Shown: in pieces, positions 815-16,960 of the stretch | Layout: each line of letters starts with the position of its first letter | How positions within the stretch are numbered: the first letter of the stretch is position 1 | Assembly: GCF_018100805.1 (NCBI RefSeq) | Contig: NZ_JAGJEA010000011.1 | Coordinates: 1 to 64,000 of the forward strand | Direction: 5' to 3' | Source: Aquimarina sp. MMG016 | Lineage (GTDB): Bacteria; Bacteroidota; Bacteroidia; Flavobacteriales; Flavobacteriaceae | DNA length: 64,000 bases | Translations under genes and position numbers: made by a program | The notes under the pieces: generated by a model | The model's database searches: none | What the model saw: only the letters and a program-made list of their open reading frames with translations | What the model was told of the DNA's origin: nothing

Positions 815-943
815 ACAACACCGTGTATAATTCATTGCTAGTACTTGCCTACTTACGAAAATCCTCGCGGATTTTCTATTCGGTTTGTATTTGCTAAATT
901 AGTTGCTTAAATCACGCAACGAAATCATACACAAACACGTTGT
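815..943 (+). repeat. attC-like intergenic element A
   Basis: The left end has ACAAC then GTGTAT (815-828). The right end has ATACAC then CGTTGT (927-943), so the two ends can pair. Inside are a perfect 8-bp hairpin GAAAATCC/GGATTTTC with a TCGC loop (857-876) and a small GTTGC/GCAAC hairpin (902-920). The layout resembles an integron attC site (paired outer boxes, 129 bp). It separates the TIR gene from the SRPBCC-like gene. The attC identity is an inference. Confidence 0.6.
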
Positions 944-971
944 GCTTCATTTTGACCCATTAACAAAACAA

Positions 972-1499
972 ATGTCATCGAAAATTGAAAAAATAGATAT
1001 CAATTACAAAGGAAAAAAAGTCAATGGAAGAAAATTGACAGTTTCTTCTGAACTTAATATTGATATTGATAATGCTTGGAACGAAGTACAAAAAAGTTCA
1101 TTATTGGAATTTATCTGTAAAGGTAAAATAAAGTTCAAGCCTGTAAATTCGAATTTACCAAAACACTGGAAAACTGATATGGAAGTACAAGTCAAATTGC
1201 TCGTTTATGGCTTTATTCCATTTGGTGGTATTCACACTCTAAAATTGGTTGATATCATGCCAGAAAAATATACAGTCTTATCAAATGAAAAAAATTCTAT
1301 CGTTAAGGTTTGGAATCATAGAATTGAAATGGTGAAGCTAAATGAGAATCTAATAAAATACACTGATGAAATTGAATTATATGCTGGATTCTTAACTAGT
1401 TTTGTGGTAAAATGGGCCGAATCATTTTACAAATACCGACAAAGAAGATGGAATATAGTTGCGGAAAAAATAAAAACGAAAGCACAACAAAGTGTATGA
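972..1499 (+). CDS. SRPBCC-like (START/polyketide cyclase fold) protein
   Basis: A 175-residue cytoplasmic protein with no signal peptide. The C-terminal part (IEMVKLNENLIKYTDEIE, then a long helix ending KYRQRRWN) resembles SRPBCC-fold proteins, in which a curved sheet closes over a C-terminal helix. No ligand can be named. A TTG at 903 opens the frame earlier, but that stretch lies inside repeat A, so I start at the ATG at 972. The stop codon lies inside repeat B, as is common for integron cassette genes. The segment's first bases (GTTGTGCTTCATTTTG, 939-954) mirror its last bases (AAAACGAAAGCACAAC, 1473-1488), so gene and flanks look like one cassette. Confidence 0.5.
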   Translation: MSSKIEKIDINYKGKKVNGRKLTVSSELNIDIDNAWNEVQKSSLLEFICKGKIKFKPVNSNLPKHWKTDMEVQVKLLVYGFIPFGGIHTLKLVDIMPEKYTVLSNEKNSIVKVWNHRIEMVKLNENLIKYTDEIELYAGFLTSFVVKWAESFYKYRQRRWNIVAEKIKTKAQQSV

Positions 1500-1612
1500 A
1501 TTAATTGCGGCGGAATTTCCATATCGGAAATTCACACGCATTAATTATCTTTAGCAACGGCGGAAAGTACCTGCGTACTTTCTCGCAACTAATCATACAC
1601 AAACCGTTACCT
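1484..1612 (+). repeat. attC-like intergenic element B
   Basis: The left boxes are ACAAC (1484-1488) and GTGTAT (1492-1497). The right boxes are ATACAC (1595-1600) and GTTAC (1606-1610). Two internal perfect 8-bp hairpins are present: GAATTTCC/GGAAATTC (1513-1533) and GAAAGTAC/GTACTTTC (1563-1582). Length and layout match element A although the inner sequence differs, so structure is kept more than sequence, as in attC sites. Confidence 0.6.
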
Positions 1613-1707
1613 GTAATTTAGCACATTAGAATCCGATTAGTTTCTTAAGCTAATGGGCAGTTTTGAAGATTTTAAGAATAAAATTAAAGTCAGCAAAAGT
1701 TAGAAAT

Positions 1708-2175
1708 ATGAATGAAGACTTCATAAGTGGATATTTAGATTGTATATCAAGAGTTAAAAGTATTTATACCCCATTCTTAGGCGGACATAATTGTTTTTTT
1801 GGAGTTAATCGAAATGAAGGAAACGGTCTTCGAGAAGATTTAGTCGATTACTTGAATTCAAATTCTGAGCGTTACACAAAAGAGGAAATAAAAAATAAAA
1901 TTGAATTGATTGAAATAAAAAATTGGTCAATAGAATTTATTCCAACAATAGAAAAATGGACATGTGATAAGCTAATAGAAAAAGAAAATGGAAATAATGG
2001 AGATAGTTTATCAGAGTATTTGGTGATGTTATTAACAGAATTCTTACCTGATGATAGAAAACTCTATAAAATGAATCTTGAGATAAACTTGCCTTGGGGA
2101 GACAGCACTGAAGAAAATTTTCTTTTTGAAACCAAAAATAAGTTTTATATCCTGCATTTCGGTGAAAGTTCATAA
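1708..2175 (+). CDS. Conserved-looking cytoplasmic protein of unknown function
   Basis: A 155-residue protein, Glu/Asn/Lys rich, with no signal peptide or membrane segment; I do not recognise the family. The start is uncertain. A TTG at 1663 extends the frame, while an ATG at 1653 opens another frame (MGSFEDFKNKIKVSK) that stops at 1701. Removing one A from the run at 1695-1698 would join the two frames, which suggests either a frameshift in the N-terminal coding region or simply a start at the ATG at 1708. The gene fills a segment whose ends mirror each other perfectly over 8 bases (GTTACCTG at 1606, CAGGTAAC at 2184). Small single-gene cargo like this is typical of cassettes; immunity-type proteins are one possibility that I cannot support further. 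Confidence 0.55.
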   Translation: MNEDFISGYLDCISRVKSIYTPFLGGHNCFFGVNRNEGNGLREDLVDYLNSNSERYTKEEIKNKIELIEIKNWSIEFIPTIEKWTCDKLIEKENGNNGDSLSEYLVMLLTEFLPDDRKLYKMNLEINLPWGDSTEENFLFETKNKFYILHFGESS

Positions 2176-2182
2176 GACAAAA

Positions 2183-2355
2183 GCAGGTAACAATATTTAA
2201 AAAAACATAGGGCTTTTGGTCTTAATAGAAAGGTTCATGTTTGTTTGAAAAGTCGACAAATATAAAATTTGGCGTTTTCAAAAAATGATAAAAGTAAAAT
2301 ATTTATATTTGGCTTAGTACCAACCCAAAACGTATCGCTTATCACCTGTCCTACA
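2183..2355 (+). repeat. attC-like intergenic element C (second sequence type)
   Basis: It starts with GCAGGTAAC, the mirror of the 5' end of the preceding segment. An imperfect hairpin (2247-2279) pairs GAAAA..CGACAAAT with ATTTGGCG..TTTTC. The inner part resembles element J near 10,200-10,290 (both have a GACAAAT...ATTTGGC core followed by AT-rich DNA and a second GGCT). The right end is degenerate: I see no clear ATACACAAACC box. Confidence 0.4.
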
Positions 2356-2394
2356 TTTCTTATACGAGACTTTGTCTGTCATTAAAAAACAATT

Positions 2395-4053
2395 ATGATT
2401 AAAGTATTTTTTTTAAAGAAATCATTAGTATTCACACTACTCCTATATAGTTGTACATTAGTATTAGCACAGTCTACAAATTATACAACATCTACAGATA
2501 TTATCGCAAACCCCGAGAGAGGTTTACAAAAATATTCTATTACATCTAGTGACTATGCTACAACTACAGATTACAACAACCTTTCTGTTGCTACATTAAA
2601 TAATTGGAAGACAAGTACAGATAAAGTAACTGTGGTATATCGTTATTTTCTTTTGGATGCATTCCTGAATTCAGATATTAACGCAACTTTTTTAGAAAAT
2701 ATTCAAGGTGATTTCGATAATGTTAGAAATGCGGGTCTTAAAATCATTGTGAGATTTTCTTATTCTAATTCCCAAGGAACTACAGCACAACAACCAACCA
2801 AATCTCAAATATTAACACATATTTCTCAGCTTTCTCCAATATTAAATACAAATAAAGATGTTATTTTTTCTGTTCAAGCCGGCTTTATTGGTACTTGGGG
2901 AGAATGGTATTATACAAACTCTACAGAATTTGGTACCGATGGCAATATCTCCGAAATTCAATGGGCTAATCGCAAAGAAATAATAGACGCTATGTTAGCT
3001 GCTATACCTATAGAAATTCCTATTCAAGTCAGATATGCTGGAATTAAAACTAAAATGTATAGCACGACACAACTAACTGAGCAAACAGCTTATCAAAATA
3101 CACCCAATGCTAGGATTGGTTTTTATAACGATGCCTTTCTTAATGATTATGGTGATCAAGGGACTTATTCGGTATCCTCGCAATGTGAAAATCCGGTTGG
3201 AGCAATTGATTACTCCTATATTGCTAACGAAACCAAATATTTACCAATGACCGGAGAAACTAATGGACTAAATACTTGTGATAATGGGTTTAGAACTAGT
3301 GGCGCTAATGCGCTGAATGAATTGAATTTAACCAATTGGACAACTATAAATAGAGATTACTACACTCCCTTTTGGACTCAGGTAATTAATTCAGGCCACT
3401 ATAATGATATTGTAAAAAATATTGGATACAGATTTGTTTTAAATTCATCCACAATAACAACAAACACTAGTGATTTTGACTTAACTATAGATTTATCAAA
3501 TGTTGGTTATGCAAGACATTTTAAAGAAAGAAATGTATATTTAATTTTGAAGAACACCATAACTGATGAAATTACAACGGCATTAATCGATACTGATATT
3601 AGAACATGGGAATCTTCTGTTTCAATTACTCAAAATTTTAATTTAGGACTAACAGGAACATTTCAATTGTATCTTTGGTTACCAGATAAAGAAACTAATT
3701 TAGCAATGAATCCCGATTATAGTATTCAATTTGCAAATACGAATATATGGGAAACTGAAACAGGGTATAATAGTTTATTACAAACCATAACTCTAGATAG
3801 CACACTCAGTGTAGATGACATTTTAAACAACAATCACTTCTCTATTTATCCAAATCCATCATCAGACTTTATTACATTGAAGTTAAAAGAATCCAAAGAA
3901 GTAAGAATTCAAATTTTTGATATATATGGACAATTAATTGAAGAGGTTTCTATTTTTGATGATTACACATTAGATGTTTCTAATTTAGAAAATGGAGTAT
4001 ATTTTATAAGATTTAAAAATAAATTATTTGCCCATAAATTTATAAAACAGTAA
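2395..4053 (+). CDS. Secreted DUF4874/DUF4832 protein with T9SS sorting domain
   Basis: 552 residues. A signal peptide (cleavage likely after VLAQ, near residue 26) is followed by a DUF4874-like domain starting at NPERGLQ and a DUF4832-like domain. The pair is common in surface proteins and resembles glycoside-hydrolase-type TIM barrels (conserved GTWGEWYY near residue 165). The last ~80 residues (IYPNPSSDFITLKL to the C-terminus) are a type A C-terminal sorting domain, the tag for export and surface attachment through T9SS. Expected location is the cell surface or outside. The enzyme function is unproven. The gene lies between elements C and D, but its segment ends do not mirror each other, so it may not be a simple cassette. 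Confidence 0.75.
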   Translation: MIKVFFLKKSLVFTLLLYSCTLVLAQSTNYTTSTDIIANPERGLQKYSITSSDYATTTDYNNLSVATLNNWKTSTDKVTVVYRYFLLDAFLNSDINATFLENIQGDFDNVRNAGLKIIVRFSYSNSQGTTAQQPTKSQILTHISQLSPILNTNKDVIFSVQAGFIGTWGEWYYTNSTEFGTDGNISEIQWANRKEIIDAMLAAIPIEIPIQVRYAGIKTKMYSTTQLTEQTAYQNTPNARIGFYNDAFLNDYGDQGTYSVSSQCENPVGAIDYSYIANETKYLPMTGETNGLNTCDNGFRTSGANALNELNLTNWTTINRDYYTPFWTQVINSGHYNDIVKNIGYRFVLNSSTITTNTSDFDLTIDLSNVGYARHFKERNVYLILKNTITDEITTALIDTDIRTWESSVSITQNFNLGLTGTFQLYLWLPDKETNLAMNPDYSIQFANTNIWETETGYNSLLQTITLDSTLSVDDILNNNHFSIYPNPSSDFITLKLKESKEVRIQIFDIYGQLIEEVSIFDDYTLDVSNLENGVYFIRFKNKLFAHKFIKQ

Positions 4054-4070
4054 AGTACAGAAAATGAACA

Positions 4071-4151
4071 CACAACAAAAGTTATAATTAATATGGGTTT
4101 ATGTACTTAACCGAAAGTTCACTACTTTTAATTCCCGTACTAACCATAGCC
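4071..4151 (+). repeat. attC-like intergenic element D
   Basis: It begins ACACAACAAAAGTTATAATT and contains CCCGTACTAACCATA (4136-4150). The latter recurs exactly in element I (9508-9522), which shows the two elements share ancestry. The right end runs into the hairpin that follows the AraC gene. Confidence 0.45.
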
Positions 4152-4152
4152 T

Positions 4153-4193
4153 AAATGATGTACAACTGGAGAAAAGTTGTATGCTAATCATTT
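4153..4193 (-). terminator. Imperfect hairpin at 3' end of araC-type gene
   Basis: AAATGAT..TACAACT (4153-4167) pairs with AGTTGTA..ATCATTT (4175-4193), with a 4-base bulge. It overlaps the stop codon of the minus-strand AraC-family gene. It could terminate transcription or be the remains of a cassette recombination site; it lacks a long T run. Confidence 0.4.
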
Positions 4194-5048
4194 TTCTAGT
4201 TTAGCGAATCCTACTGTTTTTCTATACGTATCTGGAGAAACACCTACTTTCTTCTTGAAAAATCTACTAAAATAAAACTCGTCATCATAACCCAGACTAG
4301 CAGCAATTTGTTTCAAAGGTTTTGAAGTTAAGTAAAGTTCACGCTTGGCCTCCATAACAATTCTATTTGAAATTAATGTACTTGGTGTTTGATTCAAATA
4401 TTTTTTTACGATTCCTGCTAGCGTTTTAGGACTAATACACAAAACATCTGCATATTCCCTGGGAGAATGTAACTCATAATAATTACTCTCAATAGCATCT
4501 ACTAAATTTTGCAAAATCTCTGATTGACTATCAGAAAACCTTGGTACAACATTGTCATCAAATTGTTTTTTTTGTCTTACTGCTTCTATTAGGAATACCT
4601 TTAGGAAAGCTACAAGAACTTCATGTTGAGCGATAGAGTCTCTATCCATCTCTTTTGAAATTTGATCTATTAAATTAAAAAACAGGGATTCTTCAGAAAG
4701 CTGAAAATGTGGTAGTCCTTGAAAATTGTTAAAAAGAATACCTTCCGTTTCAATTTCATTCTGATGTCGATACGTACAAAAAAAATCAGGATGAAAGTTC
4801 AATAACCATCCCGAACAAGATCTTTCTGAAGTAATCATAAAAGGCTGGTAAGGTGACAAGCAAATCATTTGATTCCCTTTTAATTCATAAGTAGACAAAT
4901 CTGCATTTAACTTATAATTACTGCCATTTAATAGAATGATAGAATAATAATTCTTTCGTTGCAAATGATCAAACTGACTGAGATTTTCAAAATACTCTAA
5001 TCTAAACGCGAGTTCACCATTATGTTTATCAATAATAATTTGAGCCAC
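4188..5048 (-). CDS. AraC-family transcriptional regulator
   Basis: 286 residues. The N-terminal half is a cupin-like sensing region (FRLEYFENLSQFDHLQRKNY, then CLSPYQPF). The C-terminal ~100 residues hold the AraC double helix-turn-helix, ending with the typical LKQIAASLGYDDEFYFSRFF and GVSPDTYR motifs. The start is a GTG at 5048. It lies 80 bp downstream of the ABM-domain gene on the same strand, separated by a strong hairpin, so it may be partly uncoupled from it. These two are the only minus-strand genes in the repeat-rich first 17 kb. A regulatory role for the neighbouring oxidoreductase-like gene is an inference from position. Confidence 0.85.
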   Translation of the reverse strand: MAQIIIDKHNGELAFRLEYFENLSQFDHLQRKNYYSIILLNGSNYKLNADLSTYELKGNQMICLSPYQPFMITSERSCSGWLLNFHPDFFCTYRHQNEIETEGILFNNFQGLPHFQLSEESLFFNLIDQISKEMDRDSIAQHEVLVAFLKVFLIEAVRQKKQFDDNVVPRFSDSQSEILQNLVDAIESNYYELHSPREYADVLCISPKTLAGIVKKYLNQTPSTLISNRIVMEAKRELYLTSKPLKQIAASLGYDDEFYFSRFFKKKVGVSPDTYRKTVGFAKLEK

Positions 5049-5088
5049 AGGAATCTGTTTTTTCTTTTTAAAATCATTTATATAAAAA

Positions 5089-5117
5089 AGAAAGGAGTGT
5101 TTGCTACACTCCTTTCT
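5089..5117 (-). terminator. Intrinsic terminator after ABM gene
   Basis: Perfect 12-bp inverted repeat AGAAAGGAGTGT/ACACTCCTTTCT with a 5-nt loop, followed on the minus strand by a T run (the A run at 5084-5089). It sits between the ABM gene stop and the AraC gene start. Confidence 0.8.
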
Positions 5118-5128
5118 AAATATAACAA

Positions 5129-5848
5129 TTATTTGGAAGCTAAAATATCTATTTTTTGGATTGCTGATGATTCAAAACCTTCTAAAATAACAGGAGCGTT
5201 TTCCATAAGTGCTGCTGCTACTTTACCAGTTAGATGGGCATCTCTACCTGAATCTTCTACAAAAGTATCAAAAATCGCATATGTATTAGTATCTATTTTA
5301 ATAGCGTACCAAGATAAAGTCTTTGGTTCGTCACCAACTAATTGCTTGCCTACATTTAAGAAATTTTCTACATCTATTGTCTTAGCTTCCTTCGCTTTCA
5401 TAACAACCAACAAACCTTTGTTTTGTTTACCAGCTTTATGATTAGAAGCTAACACATGTACTGCTTGAATGCTTGTCTTTGGGTTGAAATCTTCTAACAA
5501 ATGGTTTGCATTAGCCAGTAAAGCTTTAGCAACTTCTCCTGTTAAATGTGCTTGCCTACCTTCTTCTACTTCAAAAGTATCATAGATTCCAAAAGTACTA
5601 TTGTCAATCTGAAAGGCAAACCAAGATACAGTTTGAGGTTCTTGATTCACTAGATCTAATCCTCCAAGCAAGAAGTTTTTTACGTCTTGTTCTTTTCCTG
5701 GTTTTGCTTTCATTGTTACTAATAATCCGATAGTTTCTTTTTTTGTGTCTTGCATAATGTTTGTGTTTTTAGAATTTGAAAATGTTTGAATTGTAAAACC
5801 CAGAGATAGAACTAGGAGTGTTAATTTTAATGGAATTTTAGTTTTCAT
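5129..5848 (-). CDS. Secreted protein with two ABM (monooxygenase-like) domains
   Basis: 239 residues. An N-terminal signal sequence (KLTLLVLSLGFTIQTFS) is followed by two copies of an antibiotic-biosynthesis-monooxygenase-like domain: GLLVTMKAKPGKEQDV to VHVLASN, and GLLVVMKAKEAKTIDV to IDILASK. Both repeats keep the pattern WFAF/WYAI, IYDTF/IFDTF and AHLTG. ABM domains form ferredoxin-like dimers, so the tandem copy may fold as an internal pseudo-dimer. Known members cover quinol monooxygenases and heme-degrading enzymes; no substrate can be read here. The product should be periplasmic. It is the first gene of a minus-strand pair with the AraC regulator. Confidence 0.75.
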   Translation of the reverse strand: MKTKIPLKLTLLVLSLGFTIQTFSNSKNTNIMQDTKKETIGLLVTMKAKPGKEQDVKNFLLGGLDLVNQEPQTVSWFAFQIDNSTFGIYDTFEVEEGRQAHLTGEVAKALLANANHLLEDFNPKTSIQAVHVLASNHKAGKQNKGLLVVMKAKEAKTIDVENFLNVGKQLVGDEPKTLSWYAIKIDTNTYAIFDTFVEDSGRDAHLTGKVAAALMENAPVILEGFESSAIQKIDILASK

Positions 5849-5964
5849 CTTTTCTTTTGTTTTTTTTACACTGCAAATTTGAGAAGGAATGAGAACCTAT
5901 GGAATGGATATCTATTACTATAGCATGGACAATTTTCAAAAAGATAATGCTGAAGAATGCAGTA

Positions 5965-6098
5965 TGCACATAACAATGTATATGGTTAATAGCTTCTTCT
6001 ACGTGGACTCTGAAAATCCTATGAATTTTCTTCTGGTTTGTTTTCTTTTACTAACTTAGTTATAGCCTACGCAGCTAACAACACACAAACACATTACC
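5965..6098 (+). repeat. attC-like intergenic element E
   Basis: Left end ATAACAATGTATATGG, right end ACACACAAACACATTACC (6081-6098). Inside is GAAAAT..ATTTTC (6012-6030), a degenerate version of the hairpin in element A. It separates the minus-strand ABM gene from the Coa1-like gene. Confidence 0.5.
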
Positions 6099-6117
6099 AG
6101 TAATTGAAAAAAGCTAT

Positions 6118-6567
6118 ATGAATAATGAAATAATTGAGAAAAAAAGTTGGTGGAATCGGAATTGGAAATGGTTTTTACCACTTATAACTTTCACTTCAAT
6201 TTCTGTGGTTTTGTTTTTTTCTTCTGGGATGGGAGGACATATGACTGATTTTGTTCAAGCATACTCAGATACTGAACTTTATGAAAATGCACTAGAAAAA
6301 GCGCAACAGAATAAAAAAGTAACTGATCTTTTGGGTGAATTAGAACCAATAAACAAATTAGCAATCTTAGAAGGTGAAGTTCGATATTCTGATGATCATA
6401 AATCAGTTGATTCATCTATTCGTGTTAAAGGGAGTAAAAGAAAAGCTTCTATAGATATTTCTGCTGACAGAATAAACGGAAAGTGGAATTATAGAAAAAT
6501 CAATATCCGAATTAAAAAGCCTATTGAGGAAAAACAAACGATTGAAATAATTAATCAATCAGAATAA
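6118..6567 (+). CDS. Coa1-family (cytochrome c oxidase assembly factor-like) membrane protein
   Basis: 149 residues with a short basic/aromatic start (KKSWWNRNWKWFLP), one transmembrane helix (about 19-37), then a small soluble domain with a KVTDLLGELEPI helix and a beta segment (VDSSIRVKGSKRKASIDI). Bacterial proteins of this layout are grouped with the mitochondrial Coa1/Tim21-like assembly factors. A direct role in oxidase assembly is not shown for such proteins. The start ATG follows element E by about 20 bp. The 5' end of its segment (CATTACCAGTAATTG) has no mirror at the 3' end, so the downstream part of this cassette seems lost. Confidence 0.6.
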   Translation: MNNEIIEKKSWWNRNWKWFLPLITFTSISVVLFFSSGMGGHMTDFVQAYSDTELYENALEKAQQNKKVTDLLGELEPINKLAILEGEVRYSDDHKSVDSSIRVKGSKRKASIDISADRINGKWNYRKINIRIKKPIEEKQTIEIINQSE

Positions 6568-6603
6568 ACAATGCCTGCAAAAATAAAAGTTAGCAACCAA
6601 TGC

Positions 6604-6667
6604 GTTGTAAAATCGAAACGAAAGGTAACATTTCGCCCTGTTACAACACATATATTCACTGTTGTGC
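6604..6667 (+). repeat. Mini-cassette: attC-like site without a gene (element F)
   Basis: GTTGTAA (6604-6610) is mirrored exactly by TTACAAC (6641-6647), and ACAACA (6643-6648) is mirrored by TGTTGT (6660-6665). The unit from one GTTG box to the next is 57 bp and has no room for a gene. It could be an empty cassette or the scar of a deletion. Confidence 0.4.
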
Positions 6668-6689
6668 GTCATATTCGAACCAAAAACTG

Positions 6690-7766
6690 ATGATAAAAAC
6701 TAAACTGACCATTGCCATAATTCTGGCGCTTATTTTAAACTCTTGTAATGGACAAAAAAATGAGATTGATATACAAAACCACGTAAACTCAGAAAAAAAA
6801 TTAAACGAGAATAAGCCAAAAGTCAACTACAATGAATACTCTTTATTCCATTCAGATTTTAAAAGTCAGATTAGTCAAGTCGTAAGAACCATTTTTCAAG
6901 ACAGTAAAGGGAATTTATGGTTTGGAACCCAAAACGGAGCATTTAAACTTAACGGAAATACATTAATCCACATTGATAGTATCGTTAGTGAATCTGGAAA
7001 AGATGTAACAATAAAAGAAATCACAGAAGGTAAGGATGGAAAAATATGGTTAGGACATACTGATGGTGTGAGTAGTATTGACGGAGAAATTGTAAATAAT
7101 TATTCTAAATCAGATGGACTAATTAGCAATGATGTTTGGTCTATTAATGCTGATAAGCATGGAAAAATATGGATTGGAACCATTAATGGTGTATGTGTTT
7201 ATGATGGTCAGGAGTTCACGAACTTTAGTCTTCCGGAAGGAAAAATCGACACAACTGTAGGGGTTTCAAGTACAAGAATGGTTCACAATATATTTGAAGA
7301 CAGTAAAGGTACATTGTGGTTTAGTTCAAATGCAGGTCTATTTTCATACCCTAATGACACTCTCATAAATGTTTCGAAAAAACTAGGAATCCAAACAAAT
7401 TTTATCAATCAAGTATTTGAAGACCAAAATGATCAATTATGGGTATCAACGAAAGTCGGGTTATATAGTTTAAAAAACAGTACAGCCCATAATATTACAA
7501 AAGGAAAAATTGAGAAAGGCAAAGGAATTGGAAGTATAGCAGAAGATAAAGACGGTAACATATGGTTTGTATCTAATCAACATTTCTTGTTTAAATACAA
7601 CAAAGAGAAGTTAACTGAAATTAAAAAAACCGAAAACAATAAACGACCAGTAATTTTTGAAATATTTAGGGATAAAGACAATAGACTTTGGTTTGTTGGT
7701 TTTGGAGGTGCTTTTCGAATGGAAAACGAAAAATTCATTAATATCACAAAAAATGGGCCTTGGTAA
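6690..7766 (+). CDS. Lipoprotein, single seven-bladed propeller (two-component regulator propeller type)
   Basis: 358 residues from the ATG at 6690. An upstream in-frame ATG at 6600 would place coding sequence in repeat F and bury the lipoprotein signal, so I reject it. The signal ends in the lipobox LNSC. Seven repeats of the form D-x-x-G-x-L/I-W-x-G/S-x-x-G-A/V follow, for example GNLWFGTQNGAF, GKIWLGHTDGV, GKIWIGTINGV and GTLWFSSNAGL, each about 40-45 residues apart, enough for one closed propeller. In hybrid two-component systems this domain senses carbohydrates outside the cytoplasm, but no kinase is attached here. It fills a complete cassette (ends at 6661 and 7786 mirror each other). 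Confidence 0.75.
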   Translation: MIKTKLTIAIILALILNSCNGQKNEIDIQNHVNSEKKLNENKPKVNYNEYSLFHSDFKSQISQVVRTIFQDSKGNLWFGTQNGAFKLNGNTLIHIDSIVSESGKDVTIKEITEGKDGKIWLGHTDGVSSIDGEIVNNYSKSDGLISNDVWSINADKHGKIWIGTINGVCVYDGQEFTNFSLPEGKIDTTVGVSSTRMVHNIFEDSKGTLWFSSNAGLFSYPNDTLINVSKKLGIQTNFINQVFEDQNDQLWVSTKVGLYSLKNSTAHNITKGKIEKGKGIGSIAEDKDGNIWFVSNQHFLFKYNKEKLTEIKKTENNKRPVIFEIFRDKDNRLWFVGFGGAFRMENEKFINITKNGPW

Positions 7767-7772
7767 AAATAC

Positions 7773-7897
7773 GAATGCACGACAACGTATATAAAACCTT
7801 TGTAAAACATTAAACAACTCATCAATAAAAAACAACAATTCAGAATTTTAAGCTTTCTAAACCAAAACTATAATCTGAATTTTGAACCGTTAAACTG
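7773..7897 (+). repeat. attC-like element G, degenerate right end
   Basis: GAATGCACGACAAC (7773-7786) mirrors the start of the preceding cassette and is followed by GTATATAAAACC, the usual left-side motif. The right boundary is probably GAACCGTTAAACTG (7884-7897), which has the CCGTTA box but lacks the ATACACAAA part. The DNA between is AT-rich without a gene. Confidence 0.4.
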
Positions 7898-9544: not shown

Positions 9545-9554
9545 GAAAAACAAA

Positions 9555-10130: not shown

Positions 10131-10335
10131 AAACTACCGCCAATACGATGTATAAAACATAGCTAATAAGTATTTAATCAAAAGGTTTGTTCTTACTTAC
10201 AAAGACGGACAAATTTTTAATTTGGCTTTTAAAAGTGATAAATTAAAACAAAATATAAGAATTCGGCTCTGTGTTTATCCAAAAGTTAGTGTCTTTTTAC
10301 ACGTTACGTTTCATACACAAGCCATTACCATACAT
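10131..10335 (+). repeat. attC-like element J and gene-free stretch
   Basis: AAACTACCGCCAAT (10131-10144) mirrors the start of the barstar cassette. It is followed by GATGTATAAAACATAGCTAA, a GACAAAT...TTTGGC core resembling element C, and a right end TTCATACACAAGCCATTACC (10310-10329). From 10336 to 10458 I see only AT-rich DNA that should hold the promoter of the sigma-factor gene. Confidence 0.55.
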
Positions 10336-10458
10336 TCTCACTAGTTGAAATTTACTTATACAAACGGAATAGATTAAATTATAATTATTAATATTACTAA
10401 AGTCACTGAAATTCAATAATCTGAACTACGATTAGTTAGAGTAAAACAAGTAAACTCA

Positions 10459-11022
10459 TTGAGAACAGAAACCGAAATTATACAAGCTGTTGCTGATGGA
10501 GATGAACAAGCCTTAGCCGTATTGTATAAATTGTATTCGGAAAAAATCTATAATACAGCATTAAGCTATACCAAAATCGCAGAAGACGCAGAAGAAATCA
10601 CACAAGATGTTTTTTTAAAAATTTTAAAAAGTATTTCAAAGTTTAAACAGGAATCCTCATTGAATACATGGGTTTATCGAATTACGGTCAATACATCACT
10701 TAATTACTTAAAAAAAAAGAATAGGTTTAAATTCTTAAAGACACACATTAAAACACATCAACACATTGATTTTGAGCATCCCGGAGTTTTATTAGAAAAT
10801 AAAGAAAAAGCAGCAATACTTTACCAAGTAATCGATTGTCTGTCAAAAAATCAAAAAACAGCATTTATTTTAAGTTTTATTGAAGAACTGCCCCGACAAG
10901 AAGTTGCCAACATTATGGAAACTTCCCTAAAAGCTGTAGAATCCTTACTACAAAGAGCAAAACAAAATATGAGGACAGAATTGGAAAAAATTTACCCTCA
11001 CCGAAGGAAATCAAAAAAATAA
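10459..11022 (+). CDS. ECF-type RNA polymerase sigma factor
   Basis: 187 residues. Region 2 spans about 10-80 (ALAVLYKLYSEKIYNTALSY, then DAEEITQDVFLKI and LNTWVYRI). Region 4 spans about 120-175 (CLSKNQKTAFILSFIEELPRQEVA, then LKAVESLLQRAK). The start is a TTG at 10459; homologues begin at the equivalent point and no in-frame ATG lies near. It is followed at 20 bp by a small one-helix membrane protein in the place usual for an anti-sigma factor, and then by envelope/metal genes, so it probably controls its own module. Confidence 0.85.
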   Translation: MRTETEIIQAVADGDEQALAVLYKLYSEKIYNTALSYTKIAEDAEEITQDVFLKILKSISKFKQESSLNTWVYRITVNTSLNYLKKKNRFKFLKTHIKTHQHIDFEHPGVLLENKEKAAILYQVIDCLSKNQKTAFILSFIEELPRQEVANIMETSLKAVESLLQRAKQNMRTELEKIYPHRRKSKK

Positions 11023-11043
11023 TTGTCAAAATAAAAAAGTAAC

Positions 11044-11340
11044 ATGAATGACTCTAAAAAAAAATGGATGGAAGATGTCTTTCAAAGCATGAAAGGCAGT
11101 CAACGAGCGAAGCCTCAACAAGAGCTATTTGCAAAAATTAACAACCAATTTAAACTTGAAAAAACTGAGGTTGTTCCTTTGCATCAATGGAGGTATACTG
11201 CGGCTGTGGCCATTTTTCTTCTTTTGATGAACTCAACCGCACTGATTTACTATAACCTAAATAGACAAGTAGACTATGATTATGCTACATTTGAGGATAC
11301 CTATAAAGAATCACTAATTAGTTCATATCAAATTTATTAA
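11044..11340 (+). CDS. Small membrane protein in anti-sigma position
   Basis: 98 residues: a cytoplasmic N-terminal half (KKKWMEDVFQSMKGSQRAKP), one transmembrane helix (about 56-75, AAVAIFLLLMNSTALIYY) and a short acidic outer tail. It lacks a recognisable zinc anti-sigma motif. Position and topology suggest an anti-sigma partner for the upstream ECF factor, as seen in many Bacteroidota modules. It ends 2 bp before the next gene, so translation is likely coupled. Confidence 0.6.
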   Translation: MNDSKKKWMEDVFQSMKGSQRAKPQQELFAKINNQFKLEKTEVVPLHQWRYTAAVAIFLLLMNSTALIYYNLNRQVDYDYATFEDTYKESLISSYQIY

Positions 11341-11342
11341 TA

Positions 11343-11825
11343 ATGAACCAAGTAAGAATTTACAAATATATCATTTTAGGTTTAGTAGTCTTGAATATGA
11401 TAGTTTTAGCTTTTTTTTTGCTGACTAAACCACAGTTACGACATCAACCTCCTCCTAAAAACTTTCGGTCGGAAGTAATCGAAATGTTACGCTTAAACAA
11501 TCAACAAGCATCTCATTTTAACGAATTGGCTGATGAACATAAACAAAAAATGGAGGAAATCAATAAGCGACAGGCAAGATTGCTTTTCCCATATTTTGAA
11601 AGCCTTACGAACTCTGTTGATAGTATTGGTAAGGATAGCATATTGAATAAATATCAACAATTGGAAATGGAAAAAATAGAAATGACATATCAACATTTTC
11701 AAGACATAGAAAAATCTTTAAACAAAGAGCAACTATCTGATTTTAAATATTTTATAAAAAAAGCTACCAACAAACTTCTTTTAAGTAAGAAAAAACATTC
11801 ACCTCCCCCGAAGGATTTTGATTAA
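11343..11825 (+). CDS. Periplasmic CpxP/Spy-like heavy-metal-sensor family protein
   Basis: 160 residues. An N-terminal membrane anchor (IILGLVVLNMIVLAFFLL) is followed by an all-helical region. The motif MLRLNNQQASHFNELADEHK and the later LNKEQLSDFKYFIKK match the LTxxQ-type repeats of CpxP/Spy/CnrX proteins. Pro-rich PPPK segments flank the helical part at both ends (HQPPPKNF and SPPPKDFD). Such proteins bind metals or act as chaperone-like stress sensors in the periplasm. Within the sigma/anti-sigma operon it is a candidate sensor. Confidence 0.65.
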   Translation: MNQVRIYKYIILGLVVLNMIVLAFFLLTKPQLRHQPPPKNFRSEVIEMLRLNNQQASHFNELADEHKQKMEEINKRQARLLFPYFESLTNSVDSIGKDSILNKYQQLEMEKIEMTYQHFQDIEKSLNKEQLSDFKYFIKKATNKLLLSKKKHSPPPKDFD

Positions 11826-11863
11826 TTGATGGTCTAAAAGGAAATTAACTTAAAGAAATAGTT

Positions 11864-12646
11864 ATGACAAAATCAGTTTTTCCTTTTTTTACAGTCCTTT
11901 TAGGATCATTGATACTTTATACGTCCTGTAGCAACAATGATAACGATACAACAACTACAACTGATAACGATGTAGCCAAAACACCAGTATCGGCATTTGA
12001 TGAATTTAACAAGGATGCGGTTACAATTTCATTTGATGGAGATGAAATTACGATTGAAACAAATGGTATGCCTAACCATACATCACCTTATTGGGAGGAG
12101 ACAGCCCCTTTGTATATTGCTCCAGTAGTAGCTATTGCTCAAACACCTGGACGCATAGGAGACCGTAATTTAACTGTTACCATTCCTGCTGCACCAGAAA
12201 TAGCTGCTTCCAGTACAGCTACTGGGTTAGGTCCAATCGGTATTTCTGTAACGGGAGTTCCTATTTTCAATGATACCGAGGGACCAAACCGTCCAATAGA
12301 AGAACAAATTGTCGAAACGTTTGACTATGCTGGAGCTCACAACGGTCCTAGTGGTTATCACTATCATATTGAGTCATATGATGTTCCTGAAAATACTGTG
12401 CTTTCTCATAATGATGAAAAGTTGGTCGGTATAATGGCTGATGGATTCTTAATCTATGGAAGAAAATGTAATTCTCTTGGAGATCATCCAACGAACCTTG
12501 ATGTTTCAGGTGGTCATATCTCATCAACACAACATAGTGATGGTGAAGAATTTTATCACTATCATATCATTAACGAATTTTATTTAGGATCCATAATCGC
12601 ACTTTTTGCCGGTGATTTACAAGGTACTCCTAATAGTATCATGTAG
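11864..12646 (+). CDS. YHYH-domain lipoprotein
   Basis: 260 residues. The signal ends in the lipobox LYTSC. The body carries the YHYH-family motifs: AHNGPSGYHYHIESY, then LVGIMADGFLIYGRKC, and later EEFYHYHIINEF. YHYH proteins are secreted and of unknown biochemical role; the clustered His/Tyr suggest metal binding. A frequent neighbour is SCO-family protein, as here two genes downstream. The gap to the previous gene is about 38 bp. Confidence 0.8.
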   Translation: MTKSVFPFFTVLLGSLILYTSCSNNDNDTTTTTDNDVAKTPVSAFDEFNKDAVTISFDGDEITIETNGMPNHTSPYWEETAPLYIAPVVAIAQTPGRIGDRNLTVTIPAAPEIAASSTATGLGPIGISVTGVPIFNDTEGPNRPIEEQIVETFDYAGAHNGPSGYHYHIESYDVPENTVLSHNDEKLVGIMADGFLIYGRKCNSLGDHPTNLDVSGGHISSTQHSDGEEFYHYHIINEFYLGSIIALFAGDLQGTPNSIM

Positions 12647-12747
12647 CCCAATCTTAGATTATTGATTGAAATAAAAGTACCATTCATATTTCATTCATAA
12701 ATGGTAGCTTCTTCGTTAGATAAATTATTTAAGTTAGAATCATAAAA

Positions 12748-13371
12748 ATGAAAACAATTTTTCGGATGCTTTTGCTGATAAGCCTTTTATTAATGGCTTG
12801 TTCTCCTGTAGAGAAAAGAAAAACTTCTGGAAGTAATAGTGCTAAATGTTTTCTTGAGATACCAGAAATTACCATTGAAAAATCAGCTCTGCAGTATGAT
12901 CATGAAACATCATTATGGCTTTTAAACGGTCTACCCTATTCTGGATATGTTGTTAGTTATTATCCAGATAACAGTTTGAAGGAAAAGATTGGGATGTTAC
13001 ACGGGAAAAAGCAAAACAAGACTATCGAATGGTATCCGGACAGATATTTTAAAAATGTTTCCAATTATCATGAAGGAAAGTTACATGGAGAGAAAAAAGT
13101 ATGGACAAGAGATTCAACACATATTTTAATTGCACACTACAATTTTTATGAAGGCAGAGCACATGGAGAACAAAAAAAATGGTACCCAACTGGGGAGCTA
13201 TATAAAATTTTAAACCTAAATATGGGAAAAGAGGAAGGCCTACAAAGAGCATTTAGAAAAAATGGTGCTCTGTTTGCCAACTATGAAGCCAGAAAAGGTC
13301 GAATTTTCGGGTTAAAAAAAGCTGCTCTTTGTTATGGACTAGAAGGTGAAAGTATTAAATATGAAAATTAA
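12748..13371 (+). CDS. YwqK/MORN-like repeat lipoprotein
   Basis: 207 residues. Lipobox LLMAC. The body has repeated segments of the type G-x-x-x-x-W-Y-P-x-G-x-L, for example YSGYVVSYYPDNSLKEKIG, KQNKTIEWYPDRYFKNV and HGEQKKWYPTGELYKIL, each with a LHGK/AHGE turn. This matches the YwqK family, sometimes labelled antitoxin although that role is poorly supported. Its last codons overlap the start of the SCO gene (13361-13371), so the two are translationally coupled. Confidence 0.75.
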   Translation: MKTIFRMLLLISLLLMACSPVEKRKTSGSNSAKCFLEIPEITIEKSALQYDHETSLWLLNGLPYSGYVVSYYPDNSLKEKIGMLHGKKQNKTIEWYPDRYFKNVSNYHEGKLHGEKKVWTRDSTHILIAHYNFYEGRAHGEQKKWYPTGELYKILNLNMGKEEGLQRAFRKNGALFANYEARKGRIFGLKKAALCYGLEGESIKYEN

Positions 13372-14014
13372 AAACATTCTTTTTCTATTAATGATTTGCT
13401 TGATTGCTTGTAATGAATCAAAGCACAACCAAACTAGAGTCAAAACGCTTCCCTTTTATAACGAAGCTACCTTCACTCCTCATTGGATTTTACCTAACGA
13501 TGAAGCATTAGATTCCTTTCATAAAATCTCGCCTTTTAGCCTTACTAATCAGGAAGGAGAAATTATTACAGAGAAAAACTTTAAGGATAAAATATATGTA
13601 GTAGATTTTTTCTTTACGAGTTGCCCTGGTATTTGTCCCAAAATGACTACTAACATGATGGAATTACAGAATGAATTTTTAAAAGATGATGATGTGTTAT
13701 TATTATCACATTCAGTAACTCCAGAGCGAGACTCAGTCTCTGTTCTCAAACAATACGCCTTGAATAAAGGCATTTTATCTCACAAATGGTATTTAGTGAC
13801 TGGCACGCAACAAGAGATATACCACTTAGGTAGACAGGAATATTTTGTCGAAGAAGATTTAGGTTTGAATAAAGAAAAAGATGAATTTTTACACACTGAA
13901 AATTTTATATTGATTGATAAAAACAGGCAGATTAGAGGAATTTATAATGGTTTAAACAAAACCTCAATCAATCAATTAATAGCCGATATAAAAACATTAA
14001 AGAAGGAGAAATGA
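13361..14014 (+). CDS. SCO1/SenC-family lipoprotein (copper chaperone/thiol oxidoreductase)
   Basis: 217 residues from the ATG at 13361 (the GTG at 13346 is in frame but upstream of the signal). Lipobox LIAC. A thioredoxin-like fold follows with the metal/thiol motif C88-PGI-C92 in FFFTSCPGICPK, and the conserved His178 in FLHTENFILID. In respiratory systems SCO proteins deliver copper to the CuA site of oxidase. It closes the sigma-factor module, and element K begins at its stop codon. All three ligands are intact. Confidence 0.85.
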   Translation: MKIKNILFLLMICLIACNESKHNQTRVKTLPFYNEATFTPHWILPNDEALDSFHKISPFSLTNQEGEIITEKNFKDKIYVVDFFFTSCPGICPKMTTNMMELQNEFLKDDDVLLLSHSVTPERDSVSVLKQYALNKGILSHKWYLVTGTQQEIYHLGRQEYFVEEDLGLNKEKDEFLHTENFILIDKNRQIRGIYNGLNKTSINQLIADIKTLKKEK

Positions 14015-14156
14015 CTGTTGCTAACAAAGCGTATAATTAATTGCTAGAGTTTGGTCAGTTCTAATCGAAAAATACTATTCTGAATTATCATCATGCTCGT
14101 TCCCTTTTGCTATCTTTAGTCTCAACACAACTAACCATACACAAACCGTTAATAAC
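14013..14156 (+). repeat. attC-like intergenic element K
   Basis: Left end TGTTGCTAACAAAGCGTATA, then ATTAATTGCTAG as in element A. Right end CATACACAAACCGTTAATAA (14136-14155), identical to element B over CATACACAAACCGTTA. It separates the SCO module from the AraC/SDR group. Confidence 0.6.
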
Positions 14157-14167
14157 ATAAAAAGATA

Positions 14168-15031
14168 GTGGACACAATTAAAAGCTACGATCTTCATAAA
14201 GATGATTATTCAAAACTTCATTTTGAAATAAATGACACCAAGTCTTATTTCGATATCAATCAAAAACATGCATCAGTTCCTCACAGACATAGTTTTTATC
14301 AAATTATCTGGTTTAAAAAACCTGGCCGTCATTTTATAGACTATGAAACTATAAATCACGAAGAAAACACCATCTTCTTTATTAATCGTAATCAAATACA
14401 TTACTTCTGTTTAGATGCTCCAAATGAAGGATACTTGTTCCATTTTAATGACTATTTTATCAATAAAGGAAAAGAAGGTTTAATGAATAGATTATCGTTA
14501 TCTATATTTAATGAAATCGGAAGCAATCATTTAAAATTATCCAAAGAGGATAGTAAAAAAATAGGGTTACTAACCTCCTTTATAGAATCAGAAATCTTAA
14601 CAAGAGATAACTATTATAAAGAACAGATATATCATTATTTTCAAAATATTTTATTTCAAATTGAACGTTTACGAAAACTTGACAATAATTTTGATATTAA
14701 AACAAACCCAGGGTATAAGTTAGCTGCAGAGTTTAAAAAACTAGTATTTAAAGAAATAGAACACTTTCATAGTATAGAATATTTTGCAAACGAACTAGGT
14801 ACTAATACTAAAACACTCACTGACATTTCTAAGAAAGTGTTACTAGACACACCTGCCAATATCATTAGGCATAGTAAACTTCTAGAAGCCAAACGTATGT
14901 TATCTAGTCATACTACTTCAATTAAAGAAGTTGCCTATGGTTTAGGGTTTGATGATCCTACTTATTTTACTAAATATTTCAAAAAAGGAACTGGCTATAC
15001 TCCCAAACAGTTTCAAAAGACACATCTCTGA
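14168..15031 (+). CDS. AraC-family transcriptional regulator
   Basis: 287 residues. An N-terminal cupin sensing domain (ASVPHRHSFYQIIWFKKPGRH) precedes a C-terminal AraC double helix-turn-helix with IKEVAYGLGFDDPTYFTKYF and TGYTPKQF. The start is a GTG at 14168. It lies 86 bp upstream of an SDR oxidoreductase gene on the same strand, which it may regulate, an arrangement common in Flavobacteriaceae. Confidence 0.85.
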   Translation: MDTIKSYDLHKDDYSKLHFEINDTKSYFDINQKHASVPHRHSFYQIIWFKKPGRHFIDYETINHEENTIFFINRNQIHYFCLDAPNEGYLFHFNDYFINKGKEGLMNRLSLSIFNEIGSNHLKLSKEDSKKIGLLTSFIESEILTRDNYYKEQIYHYFQNILFQIERLRKLDNNFDIKTNPGYKLAAEFKKLVFKEIEHFHSIEYFANELGTNTKTLTDISKKVLLDTPANIIRHSKLLEAKRMLSSHTTSIKEVAYGLGFDDPTYFTKYFKKGTGYTPKQFQKTHL

Positions 15032-15117
15032 ATTACCATTCTCAGTTTCTGGATTACCATTTTTTACTTGGATTTGTATTGAAATTTGTACCAATATTAA
15101 TTTAAAAGGTAAAAAAT

Positions 15118-15873
15118 ATGAAAACACAAGCGTTGATTATTGGTGGAACTTCTGGAATAGGAAAAGCCACCGCAGAACTTTTATTAAAAGACGGCATTGA
15201 AACTATTATTGTGGGTAGAAATAATGCTAATTTAACAAATGCCGAAAGGGAGTTATCTAAATTGGGATCTGTAAAAACGATCAATGTAGATCTTAGTAAT
15301 GCTAATGCTGTAACATCTTTTGCAGGATCTCTAAAAAGTGTTGCTTCAAATTTAAAATATATTGTAAATGCAGCAGGTTACTTCAGTCCTAAACCTTTTT
15401 TAGAGCACGAAGAAGCGGATTACGATATTTATCACAACTTCAATCGTGCTTTCTTTTTTATTAACCAGGCAGCCTCTAATATACTTATTAAAAATGGTGG
15501 CGGATCTATAGTGAATATAGGCTCTATGTGGGCAAAACAAGCTATTAAAGCTACACCTTCTTCAGCTTATTCTATGGCAAAAGCAGGTCTTCATTCTTTA
15601 ACGCAACATCTTGCTATGGAATTAGCAGAATACAATATTCGGGTGAATGCCGTATCCCCAGCTGTAGTGGTAACACCAATTTATGGAGCTTTTATCGAAA
15701 AGGATAAAATCGAAGAAACACTACAAGGCTTTAATGATTTCCATCCTATTGGTCGAGTTGGTAGATCTGATGATATCGCAAAAACCATACGCTTCTTATT
15801 ATCAGATGAAAGTTCATGGGTAACTGGAGCAATTTGGGATATTGATGGTGGTATAATGGCAGGAAGAAATTAA
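15118..15873 (+). CDS. Short-chain dehydrogenase/reductase (SDR)
   Basis: 251 residues, the usual classical-SDR length. Cofactor motif GGTSGIGKA (9-17), NAAG at about 88-91, catalytic Ser in NIGSMW, and the Tyr-Lys pair in AYSMAKAG are all present. The C-terminal motif [12 protein letters not shown] is typical. The residue after the first strand (VGR near 38-40) suggests NADP preference, an inference. Substrate unknown. It is paired with the AraC regulator upstream. Confidence 0.85.
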
Positions 15874-15909
15874 ATGAAGTACTAGTTAAAAAATAAATCA
15901 AAAAATAGG

Positions 15910-16029
15910 TCGGAAGAAAAATCCTATGTTATATATAAGTCTGAAGACCTGGGTATGACTTGGTTTTCATTTGCTAAAGGAATTCTGGAGGATGCAAGAT
16001 TGATAAGTAAAACTATACATAAAAACTGA
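15910..16029 (+). pseudogene. Gene fragment with Asp-box (BNR-type) motif
   Basis: Between the SDR and methyltransferase genes an open frame without start reads YVIYKSEDLGMTWFSFAKGI to a TGA at 16027. KSEDLGMTW fits the Asp-box pattern S-x-D-x-G-x-T-W of BNR/sialidase-type propellers. It appears to be the leftover C-terminal piece of a larger gene. The rest of 15,874-16,177 shows nothing else that I recognise. Confidence 0.45.
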
Positions 16030-16177
16030 ACAGTTTATGGTAACGAAATTCTTTATCAAAATTTCTATTCACCTATACTATGGTTTCTACTCTATTTGCT
16101 ATCTTAGTGTTTATCGCAAAAAAACCATACTCTTAGGGGTGAGCTGCAATCTGCTTAAACTTAAAACCGAAACAGAA

Positions 16178-16888
16178 ATGAAAAAAATAGCTTTTATAAT
16201 TACATTTTTTCTATGGTTGGGATGTAAAAACAATCATCATGTTTCAGGTACTGACCAAGTAAAAGAAAATGTTCACGAGCACCACGAAGATGGGCAATCG
16301 AAACATAGTTCAGCTAATGAACATATGCTCCGATCCTCTATTAAAGATTTAATCGAACGATTTGAGTCTCCAGAAAGAGATGCTTATCAACAACCCCAAA
16401 AAGTATTGGAATATTTAGGGGACATACAAGGACAAACTATCATGGATATTGGAGCTGGTTCTGGTTATTTCTCTGTGAAATTAGCGGAAAAAGGAGCAAC
16501 AGTTATTGCTGCTGATGTAGATGATGAGTTTCAAGAGTTTCTAAAAAATCGAATTAAAAAAAACAATTTAAAAAACATTGAAACCCGTAAAATACCATAC
16601 GATTCTCCTAAATTGAAAGAAAAAGAGGCCGACATGGTATTCATTGTTAATACGTATCATCATATTGAAAATCGTATAGAATATTTTGCTAAAGTAAAAA
16701 AAGGTACAAAATCTAACGGAGATTTAGTTATTATCGATTTCTTTAAAACTGATATCCCTGTTGGCCCTCCTTTAAACCACAAGTTATCTATTGATGTAGT
16801 TGTTAATGAATTAAAAAAAGCAGGTTATACCTCTGTTAATGTAAACGTAGATTTGCTTCCGTATCAATATATTATTAAAGCGAAATAA
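16178..16888 (+). CDS. Lipoprotein class I SAM-dependent methyltransferase
   Basis: 236 residues from the ATG at 16178 (an in-frame ATG at 16037 would hide the signal). The lipobox is FFLWLGC. A His-rich spacer follows (NNHHVSG, then VHEHHEDGQSKHSS). The Rossmann part has motif I MDIGAGSGYFSVKLAEKG, the acidic AADVDDEF and the late VIIDFFK. A lipid-anchored methyltransferase is unexpected because SAM is cytoplasmic, but similar proteins occur in Bacteroidota. The His-rich leader hints at metal binding. Substrate unknown. Confidence 0.7.
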   Translation: MKKIAFIITFFLWLGCKNNHHVSGTDQVKENVHEHHEDGQSKHSSANEHMLRSSIKDLIERFESPERDAYQQPQKVLEYLGDIQGQTIMDIGAGSGYFSVKLAEKGATVIAADVDDEFQEFLKNRIKKNNLKNIETRKIPYDSPKLKEKEADMVFIVNTYHHIENRIEYFAKVKKGTKSNGDLVIIDFFKTDIPVGPPLNHKLSIDVVVNELKKAGYTSVNVNVDLLPYQYIIKAK

Positions 16889-16908
16889 TATCATATATCT
16901 AAAAGATA

Positions 16909-16960
16909 GCAGCTAATAACTTATAAAATTAAAACGTTTTTTATACAAACCGTTAGCACC
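16909..16960 (+). repeat. Short attC-like element L
   Basis: GCAGCTAATAACTTATAAAA, then the palindrome AAAACGTTTT (16931-16940), then TATACAAACCGTTAGCACC. It has the usual left and right boxes without the long middle part. It is the last element of this type that I can see in the window. Confidence 0.45.

Follow-up and report, generated by a model that had tools for sequence, protein, structure and literature searches.

The first 64 kb of contig C3 in the draft genome of Aquimarina sp. MMG016 (5.35 Mb, 33 contigs), referred to here as the window, contain attC-like elements that separate genes over 0.8-17 kb. The stretch is very probably a partly eroded cassette array of an integron-like system, one that works like an integron and is widespread in the Bacteroidota. 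The system is not an integron in the formal sense, because its recombinase lacks the additional domain (I2 helix) and most of its sites also lack extrahelical bases (EHBs). A first-pass annotation of the window had proposed a cassette array with attC-like sites. This proposal is supported by covariance-model matches to the sites, covariation in their fold, a bias in their wobble pairs, a circular-cassette signature, the linkage and orientation of recombinases and arrays, the position of attI-like sites, and the sharing of cassettes between species.

Two covariance models were used. For R1 the training set was 11 elements from this genome, taken as bottom strands, of which five (A, B, E, J and K) lie in the window. 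For R2 it was 150 sites, all found in other genomes; the letters of R2 are independent of the window, but its sites were chosen by likeness to R1. In the window R2 gave six matches with E<1e-5 (A, B, K, E, J and D), which lie at 0.8-14.2 kb and are all on the bottom strand. Two weak matches, L (E 0.12) and a left half at 8555 (E 2.5), are both on the minus strand. No R2 match at E<=5 was found beyond 17 kb in the window, and none to element C (2189-2373) or half-site F (6569-6656). Across the genome there are 26 R2 sites at E<=0.001. The six strong matches and a right box, ATACACAAACCGTTA, that is exact at 1595-1609 (B) and 14137-14151 (K) confirm that the elements are real. About eleven had been described; repeated sites are indeed present, but several of them are half-sites. 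No Rfam RNA family was found at the gathering score in window positions 1-20000.

Folded as had been suggested, the elements form hairpins on the bottom strand. Over a 16-bp L stem and three R pairs, the 11 first elements are 92.8% paired and have 25 both-side changes, and none of 500 shuffles attained either value. The 150 sites of relatives are 99.1% paired, with 414 both-side changes as against 101.6 when shuffled (0/500). This covariation supports the L stem of 16 bp as well as the three R pairs. The L stem of the bottom strand has 349 G.T and 4 A.C in 2390 cells, a result that the bottom-strand reading of R1 favours. Two L-stem positions are bottom-strand G.T in 118 and 147 of the 150 sites, and a third is so in 60; both wobble positions are G.U in 9 of the 11 first elements, which were found via the right box or by eye. 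On the top strand these G.T positions would be A.C mismatches, which suggests that it is the bottom strand of the sites that is under selection. The two or three extrahelical bases of the integron L stem are mostly absent: 117 of the 150 sites have no bulged L-stem base, 32 have one bulge on one arm and a single site has one on the other arm, in counts that are biased by the symmetric search model. The spacer is asymmetric: one side has 3 nt, whereas the other usually has 5-6 nt and in rare cases 4 or 7. The R stem consists of GTT and 7 bp, a position 8 that is unpaired on the top strand, and about 3 further bp. In 137 of 161 cassettes position 8 has A facing C when read on the top strand, and hence T.G on the bottom strand.

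The sites are linked to a recombinase gene in other genomes. Sixty recombinase neighbourhoods from 52 genomes of the same family were taken in the order of the homologue listing, and none was picked for having sites; the genome of the window and four fragments (G088 C13, G138 C56 and G086 C12 twice) were left out. Eleven of 217 hits scored under 22 bits and were dropped. Of the remaining 206 sites, 200 lie downstream of the recombinase in the same direction, one lies downstream in the opposite direction, one upstream in the same direction and four upstream in the opposite direction. At least one downstream site in the same direction is present in 39 of the 60 neighbourhoods and in 37 of the 42 whose contig runs on for 1.5 kb or more downstream, in one of these not until 10.7 kb. 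Less than 1.5 kb of contig is left on the array side in 18/60 neighbourhoods and on the other side in 0/60, as expected if repeated sites break assemblies. In a second set, 80 named loci searched with R1, the 29 hits without exception lie downstream and have the expected strand. Nine loci account for them, including Winogradskyella, Seonamhaeicola, Algibacter, Zunongwangia, Rufibacter and a Bacteroidales metagenome-assembled genome (MAG). The two sets overlap, as the Algibacter locus (L226) is from the same genome as one of the 60 neighbourhoods (L169).

The end of the first cassette predicts an attI-like GTT, which was found in 30 of 38 arrays at a distance of 26-135 nt downstream from the stop codon of the recombinase gene (search range, 10-140 nt); the mean for shuffled sequences is 1.5, with a maximum of 6. 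The match is perfect (7/7) in 24 arrays, as against a shuffled mean of 0.29. The stretch before this GTT is, on average, most palindromic about 17 nt upstream of it. By its position the sequence would correspond to the attI site that stands beside an integrase gene in integrons.

The same layout occurs in the genome of the window. The first-pass annotation had called the array integrase-less. This stands for the 64-kb window, where no tyrosine recombinase was found, all six PF00589 matches of the genome being on other contigs; it does not stand for the genome, which encodes an IntI-like tyrosine recombinase, P0001, at C28:71424-72587. The gene is followed by a cassette array of its own with co-directional genes, and an attI-like palindrome with GTT lies 40 nt past its stop codon (6/8 to a site placed by eye). 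The suggested search of the whole genome thus yielded both an integrase and, in the 26 R2 sites, further elements. The other five PF00589 proteins are XerD, a XerC-like protein (best model XerC, under its cut-off) and three others; recombinases L004 and L005 were seen through PF00589 and weak TIGR02249 scores alone. As in an integron, a tyrosine recombinase with a complete active site adjoins the array on C28: the R-K-H-R-H-Y residues (R225, K250, H314, R317, H340 and Y349) are invariant in 13 aligned proteins.

A tree was calculated for 95 proteins, namely 25 from the 60 neighbourhoods, 67 from the 80 named loci (13 short or broken ones were left out), the integrase of this genome, XerC and XerD. 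All 34 recombinases with sites are on one side of a supported branch (99/87), away from both Xer proteins. Of the 60 rows on that side, 26 have no detected sites or are outside the site set. IntI proteins form a separate supported group (100/98); the approximately unbiased (AU) test did not reject IntI and the Bacteroidota recombinases as one clade (p 0.228). The tree bears on the possibility that the elements are attachment sites of the host XerC/XerD, used as in integrative mobile elements exploiting Xer (IMEX), with the linked recombinase as a bystander. Phage DNA in the form of a folded single strand can be integrated by Xer recombinases, which have no I2 helix (PMC4792948; papers given by PMC number are cited for excerpts of their text), and this genome has XerD and a XerC-like protein. 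Against this, the attI-like site and the arrays come after the IntI-like gene. Moreover, none of the 29 sites listed for this genome is on C5, which has the XerC-like gene, and the site nearest to xerD, on C12, is 41 kb off. The internal control here is the upstream as against the downstream side of each recombinase, xerC/xerD neighbourhoods of other genomes being outside the sample. On this evidence a host Xer origin is very unlikely.

The recombinases differ from IntI in the region of the additional domain around patch III. The arginine of box I and the histidine of box II are 89-90 residues apart in each of the 53 neighbourhood proteins measured, and 88-94 residues apart in those named Bacteroidota proteins in which the motifs were found (in L223 and L265 they were not). 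In the references the distance is 131 in five IntI, 112 in L285, 96 in XerD and 108 in XerC. A profile of 21 homologues has 19 positions between the aligned pieces where IntI4 has 62 residues. Among the NCBIfam models P0001 matches NF040815 best (221 bits, cut-off 220); L209 also passes this cut-off, and L216 and L226 narrowly miss it. With TIGR02249, P0001 scores 186.5 bits in two pieces that leave model positions 179-240 unmatched, and three named array recombinases score 189-205, all under the cut-off of 265, whereas six IntI references score 391-489. No match over this cut-off, and hence no classical IntI, was found in the genome. An AlphaFold2 model of the L209 protein (mean pLDDT 81.7, pTM 0.54) matches XerA best and IntI4 next, with modest TM-scores of 0.43-0.58; XerA and archaeal Xer are the closest solved structures, followed by IntI4. 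Most of the aligned recombinases have an extra N-terminal domain of about 100 residues. One such domain (L052:7424-7750) gave no Pfam match; in the model of a homologue it consists of two strands, a helix, two strands and a helix before the usual core domain. In L238, L243 and L244 (Marinilabiliaceae and a Bacteroidetes MAG) the recombinase frames are 676-720 aa long, the match being about 180 residues longer than the query part, and L244 has attC-like sites downstream.

These data leave a very slender chance that the window belongs to a classical integron or is a cluster of attC sites lacking integron-integrases (CALIN), the integrase having lost the additional domain in this species only or the domain having been missed. 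The array anatomy is that of an integron, integrons have been reported in Bacteroidota (excerpts of PMC9024848 and PMC8618304), and the IntI-like reference L285, which is over the TIGR02249 cut-off, itself has a shortened box distance. However, the distance is uniformly short across the 53 proteins and falls far from that of the five IntI, the TIGR02249 scores of P0001 and the three named recombinases (186-205 bits) do not approach the IntI range, the 62 residues of IntI4 face only 19 profile positions, and IntI is a separate group in the tree.

The ends of the cassettes carry the signature of a circular intermediate. Across 161 consecutive site pairs, the 7 bases after GTT at the start of a cassette are complementary to the 7 bases before the next AAC at 5.88 positions on average. 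The two sides of one physical site give 2.76, random ends 2.53 and shuffled ends 2.56, and none of 2000 shuffles attained 5.88. Matching segment ends are to be expected if a circularising cassette carries its own R' and R''. GTT and AAC are each present in 213 of 217 sites. As in integrons, the crossover would fall at G|TT, with R' in the following cassette. Cassettes are 304-2835 nt long (median 709), and the array strand holds the longest open reading frame (ORF) in 157 of the 161. A cassette of 849 nt in G145 can be aligned over its full length, at 89%, to part of an array segment in G034, a genome of another genus. The first-pass annotation named as an alternative that the elements are miniature inverted-repeat transposable elements (MITEs). 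On this view they, or other small elements with inverted repeats, would have landed between genes at random, and the matched ends would be target duplications. This is scarcely credible. The elements do form hairpins, are rich in AT, occur repeatedly and dispersed through the genus, and often lie at contig ends, but the matching ends belong to the gene segment while the flanks of one element pair at the random level, direct repeats in the 20-nt flanks of 215 sites show no excess over shuffled ones (5 nt, 99 vs 88.1, sd 6.4; 6 nt, 36 vs 30.1, sd 4.1; 7 nt, 8 vs 9.5; 8 nt, 2 vs 2.3), and the sites run one way behind the recombinase.

Several observations weigh against the integron-like reading. 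The integrase on C28 and the array on C3 are unlinked in the draft assembly. Within the window several elements are only half-sites. Complementary segment ends, which had been described for the whole array, are seen in GTTACCTG/CAGGTAAC, ATTGGCAGTAATTT/AAACTACCGCCAAT and GTTGTGCTT/..GCACAAC, but the ends of D-E, E-F and J-K, read directly, are mismatched and those of K-L pair poorly. With filters off, R1 scored at most 19.4 bits in the window, and the default filters were adopted after these poor scores; R1 was also built from symmetric arms read on the bottom strand, which biases the counts of bulges and wobbles. Five of the 42 neighbourhoods with room have no downstream site (L120, L134, L164, L177 and L178), and in L177 and L178 the sites are upstream in the opposite direction. 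R1 sites were found in only nine of the 80 named loci, and within these loci none was found near the relatives in Archaea, Patescibacteria and Pseudomonadota. The sites of the archaeal and Patescibacteria relatives might differ from the flavobacterial model and hence give no match. At least 31 genomes of the family have sites but no listed recombinase homologue; the reverse, a homologue without sites, is seen in G007, G008 and G018. Finally, the I2 insertion is deemed necessary or essential for the working of integrons in excerpts of PMC9668308 (which has it as necessary for their recombination) and PMC8138268, which argues against full activity in its absence. A short distance between boxes I and II (87-91) was seen in L233, L246, L250, L251, L252, L254, L259 and L267, which are from Archaea and Patescibacteria MAGs.

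R1 sites at E<=0.01 are present in 156 of 199 genomes of the family, and recombinase homologues at E<=1e-40 in 125 of the 199. In the class, a scan for sites alone (R2, E<=0.001) found them in 111 of 247 genomes. No site was found at E<=0.1 in 12 genomes outside the phylum, a weak control in that first-look candidates were few (13-108) in nine of the 12. Among the open-access matches listed, judged by titles and the starts of abstracts, with subscription journals and preprints outside the scope, no description of this system was found.

Compared with IntI integrons (TIGR02249; IntI4 structure 2a3v), the system has the same layout of recombinase, attI and array, the same attC anatomy (R''-L''-L'-R') and one-way gene arrays. 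Shared too are the bottom-strand hairpin, the unpaired central spacer, the variable terminal structure, the GTT/AAC triplets and the R'/R'' complementarity borne by the cassette. It differs in the I2 domain, described as unique to IntI (PMC8352920) and as docking the extrahelical bases (PMC7790495), and in the two or three EHBs of classical attC sites (PMC2727003), which have no counterpart in the 117 sites without an L-stem bulge. Unlike IntI integrons, the Bacteroidota system also has two conserved G.T wobbles, a longer R stem, an often palindromic attI-like site downstream of the integrase stop codon, and recombinases that mostly carry the N-terminal domain. The first-pass annotation likened the array to a CALIN, which is defined by at least two attC sites under the IntegronFinder model and no integrase nearby. 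The likeness would lie in the six strong sites that our own model gives in the window and in the lack of a recombinase in 64 kb, on a contig that starts at base 1. The window differs in that its sites belong to a distinct family, the contig is cut at the left and a related integrase is encoded elsewhere in the genome.

Other points of comparison are the family NF040815, 'site-specific tyrosine recombinase/integron integrase', and XerA, the closest structure. XerA is listed as a chromosome-dimer recombinase (PMC8138268), whereas the Bacteroidota proteins are attached to cassette arrays and mostly have an N-terminal extension. A chromosome-dimer recombinase would act at a single dif-like site; arrays lie downstream in 39 of the 60 neighbourhoods. 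Among simple tyrosine recombinases the same paper notes an integron-like subgroup whose insertion 'is not fully conserved', and the excerpts make no mention of arrays or attC sites for members without it. Xer-dependent integration of CTXphi, as excerpted from PMC4792948, similarly uses a folded single strand without EHBs and a recombinase without I2; it differs in having no dedicated integrase and no cassette arrays.

The proposed mechanism is as follows. A cassette would consist of a gene and one attC-like site. Its start (GTT and 7 bases) would pair with its end (7 bases and AAC), giving a circular cassette with a complete R stem, and insertion and excision would take place at G|TT of the right box. 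The bottom strand would fold into a hairpin in which the R stem is followed by an unpaired spacer (3 nt facing 5-6 nt) and then by an L stem of some 16 bp, which has two conserved G.T wobbles and ends in a variable loop. The IntI/XerA-like recombinase, encoded on C28 just upstream of its own array, would recognise attI close to the 3' end of its gene and attC both in cis and in trans. We infer that it performs the exchange with the single bottom strand as substrate. The wobble pairs may stand in for the extrahelical bases as a cue to strand and orientation, and the array of the window would be served in trans.

The sites and cassettes of the window are given in Table 1. Since the window begins at base 1 of contig C3, the array is truncated at its left end. 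It is also worn, as seen from the halves missing in F, G, H and I, the lost right end of D, and crossover triplets that read ATT or TTT. Genes at or between the sites encode TIR-domain, Coa1-like, two-component-propeller, SnoaL, barstar, AraC, SCO1/SenC, SDR and methyltransferase proteins (Pfam), and several array proteins have no Pfam match. No relative of the SDR protein was found in viral contigs.

Table 1. Sites and cassettes in the window. Cassette ends are given as start / end.
Feature	Position	Strand	Remarks
attC-like site A, complete	814-943	+	R2 101.8 bits, E 4e-22, bottom strand; recurs in genus
attC-like site B, complete, exact ATACACAAACCGTTA	1483-1610	+	R2 82 bits, E 2e-17; recurs in genus
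attC-like site C, long-loop type, crossover triplet TTT instead of GTT	2186-2376	+	recurs in genus; no R2 match in window
attC-like site D, shortened, right end degenerate	4071-4161	+	R2 33.8 bits, E 7e-6; relatives in L205
attC-like site E, right triplet ATT	5969-6097	+	R2 40.2 bits, E 2e-7
F-type attC-like site, right half only, left arm gone	6569-6664	+	F-type sequence in L204/L205
Left half-site G, ..GCACGACAACGTATATAA	7774-7800	+	direct reading; end partly complementary to start at 6661 (GTTGTGCG)
Left half-site H	8552-8600	+	R2 10.7 bits, E 2.5, weak; direct reading
Right half-site I, end ..AAACGTTGTGACC	8870-8945	+	direct reading; same gene in G202 comes after F-type site and GTT
attC-like site, right arm CCCGTACTAACCATA, right triplet ATT	9412-9538	+	relatives in L205
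attC-like site J, long-loop type	10139-10328	+	R2 33.9 bits, E 7e-6; 83% match in L205
attC-like site K, complete, exact right box	14020-14152	+	R2 66.5 bits, E 1e-13
Short site L, weak	16912-16956	+	R2 16.2 bits, E 0.12
Gene segment A-B, protein without Pfam match	944-1482	+	cassette ends GTTGTGCTTC / AAAGCACAAC
Gene segment B-C, protein without Pfam match	1611-2188	+	cassette ends GTTACCTG / CAGGTAAC, 8/8
Coa1-like gene, former cassette, right end lost in window	6118-6567	+	Pfam Coa1
Cassette with SnoaL-like gene	8936-9420	+	Pfam; 85% identical copy in G202, match = window 8928-9411
Cassette with barstar-like gene and small protein without Pfam match	9531-10141	+	Barstar PF01337; ends complementary 12/14

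Sites C, F and 9412-9538 are of other types, which recur in stretches of the same genus. The relatives of site C in L204, L205 and L196 end in ..TAC-5 nt-GTT. The F-type sequence occurs nine times in L204, a stretch of 19 kb, and in L196 it is found with the left arm present. The start ATTGGCAGTAATTT of site 9412-9538 is complementary to the end of site J at 12 of 14 positions. In G226 the Coa1-like gene is on contig C6, within a unit GTTACCAG...CTGGTAAC. DNA matches to window 806-9410 are present in 50 of 52 genomes of the genus, this one included, and many among the matches listed are to A, B or C. The DUF4832 gene (2395-4053) is present in several members of the genus. It is not called a cassette, because no R1 site was found beside it in the four places viewed (L195 and L197-L199); short matches of D- and J-type sequence lie near it in two of the four. 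On contig C22 of G226 the DUF4832 gene is followed by 65 bp and then by the Coa1-like gene with no site between, an arrangement that was not used as proof of cassette loss.

Many arrays of this genome are at contig ends (C3 start, C10 end, C12 start, C2 end, C23 end and C29 end). The cassette start GTTACCTGTAATTT after site C12:10-137 is identical over 14 nt to the start at window 1606; perhaps these are duplicated cassettes at which the assembly broke. A TIR-domain gene (15-806) directly before site A at the contig start is possibly a defence gene carried as a cassette. The barstar-like gene itself (9558-9848) is placed as a cassette gene, and no barnase-like gene was found in the scanned set of window proteins; cassettes may be worth surveying for orphan immunity genes.

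On balance we lean towards regarding the system as a second, phylum-wide kind of integron, with single-stranded attC-like hairpins, an integrase that never had I2, and bottom-strand G.T wobbles in place of EHBs as the cue to strand and orientation. It would be either an independent invention of cassette capture or a survivor of the state that preceded I2. Which of I2 and attC came first has been posed as a chicken-and-egg paradox (excerpt of PMC4792948), and a survivor from before I2 would answer it. With I2 absent and EHBs rare, the system offers a way to test whether single-strand cassette recombination needs I2 and whether I2 or attC came first. Searches that require the additional domain may miss a large reservoir of gene capture, one that would extend over the 156 of 199 family genomes and 111 of 247 class genomes with sites.

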